DNA of 64,000 nt from NCBI RefSeq assembly GCF_015694345.1, contig NZ_JADQDC010000004.1:248001-312000 (forward strand), written 5' to 3'. Below are positions 41,493-44,917 of this stretch, one piece after another. Below the pieces are notes generated by a model, which did no database searches, was not told where the DNA came from, and saw nothing but the letters and a program-made list of their open reading frames with translations. This stretch comes from Novosphingobium jiangmenense (lineage in GTDB: Bacteria > Pseudomonadota > Alphaproteobacteria > Sphingomonadales > Sphingomonadaceae). Within the stretch, counting starts at the first letter, position 1. Each line of letters begins with the position of its first letter. A program made the position numbers and the translations under genes.

Positions 41493-42632
41493 TCAGGCTT
41501 CCCAGCGCTCGGTCGAATCGATCCAGCCACCGCCGACGACGCGTTCGCCGGCATAGAGCACGGCGGCCTGACCGGGGGCGACGCCGAACTCCGGCTGGAG
41601 AAAGCGGATCTCAGCCGTCGCACCTTCTCCGAGCGGCCCTTCCAGTTCGACCGGGACGGGCTTGGCCAACGAGCGGACCTTGGCCGTCAGGGGGCCCGCC
41701 GGGAGCGGACCGATGCGGTTCGTCTCGATGATCTTGGCGCGGCTGACGGCGAGCATCTGGCGTGGCCCGACCAGCACCCGGCGCTGCGGCGCATCGAGGC
41801 CGATGACGTAAAGCGGTTCGGGCTGCCCGCCGATCTCCAACCCGCGCCGCTGGCCGACCGTGTAATGGATGATGCCGCGATGCTGCCCGAGCACCTCGCC
41901 GCTGGCCGCGTGCACGATCTCGCCGGGCGCGTCTCCCTCGGGACGCACCGCGCGGACGATCTTGGCGTAGTCGCCATCCGGCACGAAGCAGATGTCCTGG
42001 CTGTCGGGCTTGGCGGCGACGACGAGACCCAGTTCTTCGGCGATCCGACGCGTCTCGGTCTTGGGCAGCCCTCCCAGCGGGAACCGCAGGTAATCGAGCT
42101 GGGATTCGGTGGTGCCGTAAAGGAAGTACGACTGGTCGCGGGCGGGATCGACGGCTCGATGCAGTTCGGCGCCAGCAGCGCCCATGACCCGGCGCACGTA
42201 ATGCCCCGTGGCCAGGCAATCCGCGCCGAGTTCGCGCGCCATCGCCAGCAAGTCTGTGAACTTTGGCCCCATGTTGCAGCGAACGCAGGGGATCGGGGTG
42301 CGACCGTTGAGATAGTCGTCGGCAAAGCGCTCGACCACTTCCTCGCGGAAGCTGGATTCGTGGTCGAACACATAATGCGCGATGCCCAGACGGTCGGCGA
42401 CCGCGCGCGCATCGCGGATGTCGTCGCCGGCGCAGCATGCGCCCTTGCGGCCGGTTGCCGCGCCGTAGTCATAGAGCTGCAGCGTCACGCCGATCACTTC
42501 GGCGCCACTGGCAGCGGCGATGCCCGCAACCACGGAGCTGTCCACGCCGCCCGACATGGCAACCACGATGCGCCGCGCCTTGAGTGGTGCGGACAAGTCG
42601 AAAAGGTCGGGAAGGGCAGCGGTATCGAGCAT
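41493..42632 (-). CDS. mnmA: tRNA-specific 2-thiouridylase MnmA
   Basis: 379 aa from ATG 42632 ([12 protein letters not shown]). Adds sulfur to the wobble uridine of tRNA Lys, Glu and Gln. The PP-loop SGGVDSS, active-site cysteines in TPIPCVRCN and [10 protein letters not shown] (Cys at the second site), and the later QRRGLEIGG and RDQSYFLYG motifs are intact. A longer start at 42707 adds 25 residues and is not favoured. It converges with the 122-aa membrane protein gene (4 bases between stops). Confidence 0.95.
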
Positions 42633-42711
42633 TGCGCGCCCATAGGCTTTTTCCTGCTGAAGCGCAAAGCGTGCCAGGGTGGGGCCGACGCAAGCCAGAA
42701 TGAACAACCGC

Positions 42712-42737
42712 TAAACAGGGCCTTTACCAGACCTTAG
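42712..42737. promoter_or_regulatory. Tandem CtrA-box-like sites upstream of the sciP pair
   Basis: TAAA-CAGGGCC-TTTA and TTTA-CCAGACC-TTAG share the middle TTTA, giving two TTAA-N7-TTAA-type half-site pairs in register, each with two mismatches. They lie 27-52 bases before ATG 42764. In Caulobacter sciP is a CtrA target, which makes these worth testing. Confidence 0.3.
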
Positions 42738-42763
42738 CCATCTTGGGTCTAAGTCTTCTGGCA

Positions 42764-43105
42764 ATGGACATGAGCTTCAACAATCCGGCTGCTTTCACCA
42801 GCGGCGATGCGGCTTTCGAGGGCGGGGCTGCGCTAAGGCCGCTGTCGTGGCACATGTTGTGCGCACGGATCACCGCATCACAGGATCTGCGCCGGACCTT
42901 GCAGTTCCTGGGCGAGGACGAACAGGGTGCAATCGGCAGCTTCCACCAGGGTGCAGCCAGCTTCCTTGCGTCCGCAAATTCGGGCGTTCCGGCGCATGAA
43001 CGGGTCGTTAACCCAAACTCTTCAGCGAATGGCAAAGCAACCTTGGGCACAGCCTTCGCCACACAGAACGTGACGCGGCAAGGCCGCGCCGAAGCACGAG
43101 ACTGA
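42764..43105 (+). CDS. Uncharacterised protein encoded directly upstream of sciP
   Basis: 113 aa from ATG 42764 (MDMSFNNPAAFT). The N-terminal half has a conserved-looking helical block (LRPLSWHMLCARITASQDLRRTLQFLGED) followed by a low-complexity C-terminus rich in Asn, Ser, Ala and Gln. One base separates its stop from the sciP ATG, so the two are co-translated. I do not recognise a family. The tight pairing and the presence of CtrA-like boxes upstream make a role in the same regulatory circuit possible. Confidence 0.7.
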   Translation: MDMSFNNPAAFTSGDAAFEGGAALRPLSWHMLCARITASQDLRRTLQFLGEDEQGAIGSFHQGAASFLASANSGVPAHERVVNPNSSANGKATLGTAFATQNVTRQGRAEARD

Positions 43106-43106
43106 C

Positions 43107-43406
43107 ATGATCGAGAACCAGAAAATCCGTCCGGCCCAGGTCATCGGTCCGCTTGGTGAGCCGCTCACCATCGACAGTCTGCCCCCGGCGAACACGACCC
43201 GTTGGGTCGTCCGTCGCAAGGCCGAGGTTGTCGCTGCCGTTAACGGCGGACTTCTGACCATCGACGAGGTCTGCGAGCGCTATGGCCTCACGCTCGAGGA
43301 GTTCGCCTCGTGGCAGCGCGCGGTCGACCGTTCGGGAATGCAGGGCCTGAGGGTTACCCGCATCCAGCATTACCGCGATCTGTATGAGCGCCAGCTCAAG
43401 TATTGA
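43107..43406 (+). CDS. sciP: SciP, CtrA inhibitory protein (DUF1153)
   Basis: 99 aa with the DUF1153 HTH: RWVVRRKAEVVAAVNGGLLTIDEVCERYGLTLEEFASWQRAVDRSGMQGLRVTRIQHYR. In Caulobacter SciP binds DNA and CtrA and blocks CtrA-driven transcription late in the cell cycle. The same role here is inferred from near-identity of the core in alphaproteobacteria. A strong terminator follows at 43431. Confidence 0.95.
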   Translation: MIENQKIRPAQVIGPLGEPLTIDSLPPANTTRWVVRRKAEVVAAVNGGLLTIDEVCERYGLTLEEFASWQRAVDRSGMQGLRVTRIQHYRDLYERQLKY

Positions 43407-43747
43407 TCTCCCAACCAGCTCCATCCGCGGCGGCCGCTTCCTTCGGGAGGCGGCCGTTGTTCTTTGGGTCATCTTTTCAGGGCGCGCGACCTGAACCAAT
43501 GCGCGCCTTTCGATACCGGACCGGTTACAAAAAGTTACAGGTGCAAGAAAGACACGGAGTCCAATTCGGCTTAAGTCCTTCGTCGAGACGGAATTGCGCC
43601 TTGTCGGAAGGGTGTCTATTGGACGCGAGGTAGCTGCCAGAAGGCGGCGCCGCGTGCTTGCGGCAAGTGCGTTATGAAGATAACACACCTACTCGAGTTA
43701 CAAGGGGCCCGCCCTCGCCCCGCCATGGGACGAAGGCAGTGACAGAC
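43407..43747. other. Intergenic region between sciP and the RND efflux operon (341 bases)
   Basis: The first part is the sciP terminator. Beyond it I see a short palindrome ACCGG-A-CCGGT near 43527, a direct repeat GTTACA-N4-GTTACA at about 43533-43552 and another palindrome CTTGC-G-GCAAG near 43657. They are candidate operator sites for the efflux operon, whose regulator is not in the window. No convincing ORF or RNA gene is visible. Confidence 0.5.
43431..43465 (+). terminator. Terminator after sciP
   Basis: CGGCCGC-TTCC-TTCG-GGAG-GCGGCCG forms a stem of about 11 bp with a TTCG loop, followed by TTGTTCTTT. It separates sciP from the efflux operon. Confidence 0.87.
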
Positions 43748-44917
43748 ATGAATTACGAAACCACCATCAATATGACCGGCGCGCTTCCGCAGTCCGACGG
43801 AGAGCCACAAGACCCCGCTTCCACGCGGCGGCTGTGGGTCATTGGCGGCCTCATCGCTGCCGCGCTGATCGGCGTGTGGTTCTTCATGCATTCCGGCGAC
43901 AGTGCCGCTCCCGACGAAGGCAAGAACGCGCAGGCGCAGGTGGTCACGGTCGTCGTGCCCGGCACCACAACGATACCTCGCAGCATTACCGCCAGCGGTA
44001 CCATCGCTGCGCGTCGGGAAATGCCGGTGGGCGTGGCGGGCGAAGGCGGCCAGATTGTCCAGGTGCTGGTGGATGCCGGTGACTGGGTCAAGGCCGGGCA
44101 GGTTCTCGCCGTGATCGACCGCTCGGTGCAAAGCCAGCAGATCGCCAGCCAGGCCGCCAATGTCGAAGTCGCCGCAGCCGATGCCCGGCTGGCTCAGGCC
44201 AATCTCGATCGTGCGCTCAAGCTGGTCGAGCGCGGCTTCATCTCGAAGGCTGACGTCGACCGTTTGACCGCAACGCGCGATGCTGCCGTGGCTCGGGTGC
44301 GGGTTGCCCGCGCGAGCCTTGGCGAACTCGGCGCGCGCGCTGCCCGTCTCAACATCGTCGCGCCTGCTTCGGGCCTGGTGCTGACGCGCGCGGCGGAACC
44401 CGGGCAGGTCGTCAGCCCCGGTGCCGGCGTGCTGTTCTCCATGGCCCGCGACGGCCAGATGGAAATGCAGGCGCGCCTGTCCGAAGCCGATCTCGCGCGC
44501 CTTTCGGTCGGAGCGAGCGCCGAAGTGACGCCGGTCGGCACGACGCGGGCCTTTTCAGGACAGGTCTGGCAGCTTTCGCCGACGATCGACCAGACCAGCC
44601 GCGAAGGCATCGCCCGTATCGCGCTGAGCTATGACAATGCCCTGCGTCCCGGCGGCTTTGCCACGGCGACCCTGACCTCTGGCATGATCACCGCGCCCCT
44701 GCTGCCGGAATCGGCGATCCTTTCGGACGACAAGGGCTCGTATGTCTTCGTCATCGACGGTGACAACAAGGCCGTGCGCCGTCCGGTCAAGACCGGTGAG
44801 GTCAGTGCGCGGGGCATTGCCGTTGTCGAAGGGCTGTCCGGCCGGGAACGCGTGGTTCTGAGAGCGGGCGGCTTCCTCAACCCCGGGGACAAGGTCCGAC
44901 CGGTCGTTCAGAAGTAA
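43748..44917 (+). CDS. RND efflux periplasmic adaptor (MFP)
   Basis: 389 aa from ATG 43748. Cytoplasmic head, one TM (VIGGLIAAALIGVWFFM), then the lipoyl domain (~100-150, GGQIVQVLVDAGDWVKAGQVLAVIDR), a coiled hairpin (~160-230) and beta-barrel parts. It links the RND pump to an outer-membrane channel. No TolC-like gene follows. The RND permease starts 9 bases downstream. Confidence 0.93.
   Translation: MNYETTINMTGALPQSDGEPQDPASTRRLWVIGGLIAAALIGVWFFMHSGDSAAPDEGKNAQAQVVTVVVPGTTTIPRSITASGTIAARREMPVGVAGEGGQIVQVLVDAGDWVKAGQVLAVIDRSVQSQQIASQAANVEVAAADARLAQANLDRALKLVERGFISKADVDRLTATRDAAVARVRVARASLGELGARAARLNIVAPASGLVLTRAAEPGQVVSPGAGVLFSMARDGQMEMQARLSEADLARLSVGASAEVTPVGTTRAFSGQVWQLSPTIDQTSREGIARIALSYDNALRPGGFATATLTSGMITAPLLPESAILSDDKGSYVFVIDGDNKAVRRPVKTGEVSARGIAVVEGLSGRERVVLRAGGFLNPGDKVRPVVQK

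Follow-up and report, generated by a model that had tools for sequence, protein, structure and literature searches.

The sciP gene of Novosphingobium jiangmenense is, on a reading that we consider fairly probable, the second of two genes in a unit that is controlled at two sites of the CtrA type: one before the first gene, here called the partner, and the other inside the partner coding sequence. SciP inhibits CtrA, a master cell-cycle regulator of the Alphaproteobacteria. The window, i.e., the whole stretch of DNA that was analysed, is 64,000 nucleotides long and belongs to a genome of 4.08 Mb in 31 contigs.

Organization of the Locus

As the sequence-only reading had stated, a 113-amino acid open reading frame (ORF) ends one base 5' of sciP; the base between its TGA and the sciP ATG is the C at 43106. 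The identity assigned to SciP was likewise borne out. The window protein scores 141.5 bits with NF051866 (cut-off 100) over model positions 1-90 of 90, which places it in that family, and 140.7 bits with Pfam DUF1153 (cut-off 23.5). The features are listed in Table 1.

Table 1. Features of the partner-sciP region, in window positions
Feature	Position	Strand	Basis or detail
mnmA, divergent neighbour of the partner	41493-42632	-	family matches
Conserved element before the partner, CtrA-like half-sites	42710-42739	+	conservation across relatives
Half-sites of this element	GCTAAA 42710-42715; TTTACC 42723-42728; TTAGCC 42734-42739	+	second and third 11 bp apart
Near-matches to TTAA-N7-TTAA	TAAACAGGGCCTTTA 42712-42726; TTTACCAGACCTTAG 42723-42737	+	2 mismatches each
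TCTAAG, possible -10 of a partner promoter	42748-42753	+	columns +31/+32: T 0.70, A 0.69
Partner gene, uncharacterised family, 113 aa	42764-43105	+	ATG 42764, TGA 43103-43105
Partner codons 1-78; W29, L32, R35, A38, R43, G58-S59-F60; predicted helix 29-50	42764-42997	+	protein-level purifying selection
CtrA-type composite element overprinted by the partner, probable sciP promoter	42997-43036	+	conservation
Parts of the composite element	TGAA 42997-43000; TTAACC 43008-43013; TTCA 43021-43024; ATGGCAAA 43029-43036	+
Partner C-terminal tail, would double as sciP 5' leader	43037-43102	+	frame kept open to sciP start
sciP, CtrA inhibitor SciP, DUF1153, 99 aa	43107-43406	+	ATG 43107, family profile matches

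An HlyD-type gene and an AcrB-type gene lie 3' of sciP. On the other side, the ORF list gives mnmA an outer TTG start at 42707, but the ATG at 42632 agrees better with the family matches. Of 102 family loci (L001-L099 and L117-L119), 101 have mnmA upstream in divergent orientation, the exception, L090, being without it in the fetched flank. Therefore, the order mnmA-partner-sciP is typical of the family as sampled. No mnmA was seen in the ~0.8 kb fetched upstream at 17 order-level outgroup loci or 16 sciP paralog loci. The nearest named loci, among the best 80 of 559, are those of Novosphingobium.

A consensus scan of positions 42600-43560 found no terminator, which fits co-transcription of the partner and sciP. 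A sigma-70 consensus scan of the same interval found no promoter, and Rfam gave no match at the gathering threshold in 42500-43800. An antisense ORF (42724-43062, 112 aa) was rejected as a gene: the mean entropy of codons 24-75 is 1.33/1.30/1.66 by plus-strand codon position, which is the pattern of a plus-strand gene.

A CtrA-Type Element inside the Partner Gene

The best CtrA-like site of the region, TGAACGGGTCGTTAA (42997-43011, 1 mismatch to TTAA-N7-TTAA), lies within the partner gene and was absent from the sequence-only reading. It is part of a composite element with the consensus TSAA-N7-TTAACC-N7-TTYA, followed by about RTGGMAA, some 100 bases 5' of sciP. The TTAACC half-site is found at -140 to -60 of sciP in 115 of 118 sequences, mostly at -85 to -119 from the ATG, and TTAAC is present at -125 to -85 in all 30 same-genus loci.

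The codons of the partner that cross this element behave unusually. For example, V82 is always written GTT (100 of 100 V codons) and N83 always AAC (117 of 117), and the entropies of codon 86 are 1.50, 1.73 and 0.07, i.e., the first two bases vary and the third is fixed. Third bases do vary at codons 84, 85, 88, 90 and 91. The pS of codons 79-91 is 0.050, versus 0.354 in the partner core. Presumably, several third bases in codons 82-91 are frozen because a CtrA-type composite site sits there. The peptide VNPxxSANGK, common to loci of the genus near the partner C-terminus, was thus ruled out as a protein motif; on the codon evidence, its conservation is that of DNA and not of protein.

When 169 of 182 family loci (duplicates removed) were scored for the element, 158 reached at least 6.5, versus 1 of 3380 shuffles, a comparison that was not blind because the scorer, like the TTTAC-N6-TTRR-like regular expression used below, was devised after the alignments had been viewed. 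With the same scorer and threshold, 10 of 17 order-level outgroups (6 of 340 shuffles) and none of the 16 sciP paralogs (1 of 320 shuffles) qualified. A TTNR-N7-TTAAC box is present in 12 of the 17 outgroups and a TTAG-N7-TTAA box in 14; these boxes sit in DNA where the partner profile, which was the sole check for coding, finds no ORF.

Position served to assign the partner in further genera of the family. Of 29 such loci, 20 have the stop of the partner frame ahead of the element or within it, and the frame that crosses the element in L038 is a different one. Twenty-five position-assigned ORFs, short and extended, were compared with the partner profile and gave a profile comparison probability of 94.7 (E 5.9e-8), values to be read with the facts that the aligned range takes in part of the element, that the 25 were picked by eye from 37, and that the choice favoured ORFs with GSF or GAF. 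The best reading of these patterns is that the sciP promoter is the older feature and that the partner gene was later extended across it. We suggest that the partner gene overprints a CtrA promoter that probably belongs to sciP itself, because the embedded element is frozen and because TTAACC-N7-TTCA recurs before ctrA (see below).

GTCGC, a SciP half-motif, was considered for the interval from the element to sciP and set aside. It occurs in 34 of 118 sequences versus 8.6% of shuffles, but 22 of the sites are at -38 only, and there is no excess over shuffles in the outgroups, the paralogs or the 38 loci outside the 118; being weak, it was not used.

The Junction with sciP

The sequence-only reading had the two genes co-translated, and the pair does look translationally coupled. 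The test used 123 non-redundant loci scoring at least 40, of which 121 have the element by regular expression. In 107 of these 121 loci, the partner frame stops between -2 and +8 relative to the sciP ATG, as compared with 9 and 8 of 121 for the other two frames. The partner frame relative to sciP varies among the 107 loci (80, 24 and 3), yet the place of the stop is constant; therefore, indels in the tail are balanced by other stops there. The amino acids of the tail are little constrained (pN/pS 0.81). This open partner frame up to the sciP start suggests selection for translational coupling.

The Partner Protein

A partner profile was seeded with 57 ORFs chosen in these loci by the pattern W..[LVI].[AST][RQ][LF]. 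It recognises the partner beside sciP in 29 of 30 same-genus loci (L001-L030, of which the window is one and L006 the exception) and in 69 of the 80 named loci (best 80 of 559), with matches in L001-L119 being partly by construction and W29, L32 and R35 partly selected. The partner is a conserved neighbour of sciP among these relatives. Eleven of these best 80 of 559 named loci fall below a score of 40, seven of them titled Sphingopyxis. By position alone, an ORF starting at -450 to -280 and stopping at -20 to +12 of sciP is present in 78 of the same 80; a loose W motif occurs in 68 of these 78 ORFs, and of the ten that lack it, seven are titled Sphingopyxis. An order-wide search with an alignment profile matched 29 of 147 genomes, once each and all within the window's own family, and the 19 of these 29 matches that could be checked all lie directly 5' of sciP.

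Some individual loci display patterns of their own. In seven loci titled Sphingopyxis (L190, L195, L203, L205, L216, L218 and L219), the position-defined ORF stops at the sciP start and is unrecognised by the profile, and their element reads GTTTACC...TTTCAG. L166, from a record titled Sphingomonas sp. IC081, has a partner, element and sciP all of the Novosphingobium type, and its genus label may be wrong. L006, L041 and L155 retain the sciP element, but none of their ORFs exceeds 40 bits with the partner profile; these three are a possible natural test of whether the partner is dispensable.

Codon conservation was followed in an alignment of 118 of 130 sequences, all non-redundant coding sequences; dropped were L031, L095 and L213, which have no ATG by our rule, L069 and L222, whose frame ends ahead of the element or inside it, together with 12 duplicates. 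W29, a residue of the seed pattern, is found in 118 of 118. F60 (116 of 117) and A38 (111 of 118), neither of them in the seed pattern, are conserved with varied third bases, and the G-S-F motif is written with different codons among relatives. Over codons 1-78, pS is 0.354 and pN 0.119, giving a pN/pS of 0.34 in 17 disjoint close pairs; sciP gives 0.02 in the same comparison. A first pass gave 0.53 for the core, from 17 pairs picked by sciP similarity that include distant, poorly aligned partners. Judged from its codons, the partner is a real, fast-evolving protein under purifying selection in its first ~78 codons.

The family of the partner is less easily named. No Pfam or NCBIfam model matched the window protein, its best PDB sequence match had an E of 0.4, and 68 family members gave only stray single-member matches to families (citrate synthase, sigma factor). 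An AlphaFold model has a mean pLDDT of 67.5 and a pTM of 0.33, with helix 29-50 its sole confident part.

Second copies of sciP were found in 16 same-genus loci (L120-L135) and are 53-80% identical. None has an upstream ORF above 7.4 bits with the partner profile, and two ORFs at 7.4 and 6.2 bits are at noise level. Since these copies have neither a profile match nor the composite element, the partner is not a companion of every SciP. TTAAC-type sites are present within 300 nt upstream of 15 of the 16, none being listed for L135. In L259, ligA- and sdhA-like genes (named by eye) are near a second sciP copy.

It is quite possible, if short of probable, that the partner has nothing to do with the CtrA/SciP circuit, has another function and shares a transcript with sciP by happenstance. 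We found no functional link between them, the window protein and region have no match among families, solved structures or RNA families, and the second sciP copies do without a partner. However, the single match per genome directly 5' of sciP, wherever this could be checked, and an open frame to sciP that looks selected speak against it.

The sequence-only reading went further and suggested that the partner may act in the same feedback loop as SciP. The conserved partner beside sciP, the apparent coupling and the conserved upstream boxes agree with this. However, the strongest CtrA-type site lies inside the 3' end of the partner and resembles a promoter of sciP itself, and no result connects the protein itself with the activity of CtrA or SciP. 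We would call a role in the loop conceivable but improbable, and what likelihood it has comes from the position and coupling of the partner.

The Upstream Element

The two near-matches to TTAA-N7-TTAA reported 27-52 bases 5' of the partner ATG are present. By number they are no more than chance would supply: the window has 22 matches with at most 2 mismatches versus 21.1 expected, and 46 of 100 shuffles have at least 22. Conservation tells a different story. Within the 100 nt preceding the partner, 113 of 118 sequences (95.7%) contain a match with no more than 2 mismatches, as do 15.2% of mononucleotide shuffles. The TTTAC-N6-TTRR-like expression, devised with the alignments in view as noted above, matches 89 of 118 sequences versus 8 of 2360 dinucleotide shuffles, and 85 of the 89 matches are at -38 to -42 from the ATG. 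The consensus is GGTAAA-N7-TTTACC-N5-TTGACC, with ~8 of the 118 best matches clearly misplaced, and the window reads GCTAAA-N7-TTTACC-N5-TTAGCC. Hence, chance by motif count, the near-matches are non-random by conservation in these alignments. CtrA co-regulation of the pair is plausible because the upstream boxes are phylogenetically conserved.

A TA-containing stretch lies ~12-14 nt before the partner ATG, and an SD-like 4-mer precedes the partner in 26 of 118 sequences, versus 63 of 118 for sciP. The near-constant spacing from element to ATG, the TA stretch and the fewer SD-like motifs than at sciP together suggest a partner mRNA that is leaderless or nearly so.

Are the Sites Bound by CtrA?

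The ctrA gene of these genomes is recognised by NF045991 at 427 bits (cut-off 350). TTAACC is present at -90 to -120 of ctrA in 21 of 21 same-genus loci, and as TTAACC-N7-TTCA in 20 of the 21; the sciP element has the same architecture. Nine order-level ctrA loci have other arrangements. In the same ctrA promoters (L223-L243), a TTAACCTTT block is found at -90 to -120 in 21 of 21, followed by TTCA in 20, and this block is a candidate CtrA autoregulation site.

An exact TTAA-N7-TTAA site was not found at either element: the composite element is 1 mismatch away (42997-43011) and the upstream matches 2 (42712-42726 and 42723-42737). TTAA-N7-TTAA is present at 1 place in the genome, versus 12 for the reversed control AATT-N7-AATT, which suggests that this genome avoids the full CtrA site or uses another in its stead, although TTAA-N7-TTAA is described as conserved and functional across the Alphaproteobacteria (excerpt of PMC9437464). 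With the full site so scarce, CtrA sites in this genome would need a half-site basis. TTAACC-N7-TTYA is present at 5 places versus 3 for its reversed control and so is not clearly enriched; two of the five are the sciP and ctrA sites and a third lies at a fliJ/fliK-like junction (genes named by eye from their protein sequences). The upstream arrangement TTWACC-N5-TTRRCC (3 versus 2 for the control) is not clearly enriched either; TAAA-N7-TTWACC gives 3 versus 0, and the other genomic matches of these two motifs showed by eye no clear pattern of CtrA targets.

It is rather unlikely, in our judgment, that some regulator besides CtrA, such as another OmpR-type protein, is what binds the sites, or that the upstream element belongs to mnmA. 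The upstream half-sites TTTACC and TTGACC do depart from TTAA, the full site is scarce, and mnmA leaves this spacer in the opposite direction at 101 of 102 family loci, so the upstream element might serve mnmA instead or as well. However, TTAACC-N7-TTCA occurs in the sciP element as well as before ctrA at 20 of 21 same-genus loci, and the near-constant distance from the upstream element to the partner ATG fits the partner, that distance having been taken on the partner side only. Excerpts from the literature point the same way. In Brevundimonas subvibrioides, sciP was no longer transcribed once its CtrA site had been mutated (PMC7987155), and CenR of Rhodobacter, the one alternative regulator compared, recognises TGA-N8-TGA (PMC9275681). 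We infer that CtrA acts at both elements.

That the partner ORF is only a translated leader, which sets sciP translation, keeps the promoter DNA in place and makes no functional protein, is very unlikely: its rapid divergence and its weakly constrained tail, held open to the sciP start, would suit such a leader, but the core pN/pS of 0.34, the different codons for G-S-F, the 20 of 29 position-assigned ORFs that end before or in the element and so fall short of sciP, and the 25 position-assigned ORFs that still resemble the partner profile (with the selection caveats given above) do not.

A Model for the Locus

The two-gene unit that we favour would work as follows. CtrA at the upstream element would start a leaderless, or nearly leaderless, mRNA at the partner ATG that covers the partner and sciP, and the partner frame, by reaching the sciP start, would couple sciP translation to that of the partner. 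The element in partner codons 79-91 would be the CtrA-activated promoter of sciP itself and give rise to a sciP-only mRNA. The partner might then be a small accessory protein of helical structure, produced alongside SciP whenever there is active CtrA, and might perhaps act in or beside the CtrA/SciP feedback. The history of the locus is likely that of a gene of ~90 codons, ending before the sciP promoter, which was lengthened through the promoter by loss of its stop codon; the direction of this change is taken from the outgroups. The bolder proposal that the partner is a new, family-specific CtrA/SciP component, with its gene extended over a CtrA promoter and CtrA driving sciP from two promoters, we regard as doubtful.

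If the model is correct, a single DNA segment serves as coding sequence and also as an operator for CtrA, and of the two sciP promoters one is coupled to the partner and the other is independent of it. Of interest here are the conserved partner gene and the use of the same DNA for a promoter and a protein, with the overprinting seen at stages across genera: the stop is before the promoter, inside the promoter, or beyond it after read-through in differing frames. It also carries a caution: a C-terminal peptide can owe its conservation to a regulatory site in the DNA that encodes it.

Comparison with Known Systems

Among the literature matches listed, there is no study of sciP in sphingomonads, and DUF1153 as a search term matched no paper. 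The closest structures to the window SciP, the DUF1153-type 2jrt and 2oa4 (SiR5), are sequence relatives of it (E 1e-18 and 1.7e-17) and are uninformative on the partner.

The sciP genes of Caulobacter crescentus and Brevundimonas subvibrioides resemble that of Novosphingobium in encoding a SciP family protein and in having a CtrA-type site before the gene, and that of C. crescentus is stated to be CtrA-activated (excerpts of PMC7987155, citing Tan et al. 2010). However, in Novosphingobium the site is inside an upstream coding gene that ends at the sciP start, an overlap that was examined here only. A second likeness is to the CtrA activator promoters of Caulobacter that have a TTAA half-site near -35 (excerpt of PMC4287350). 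The Novosphingobium element differs from these in being a composite, TSAA-N7-TTAACC-N7-TTYA, and it was placed by sequence and not by transcription starts.
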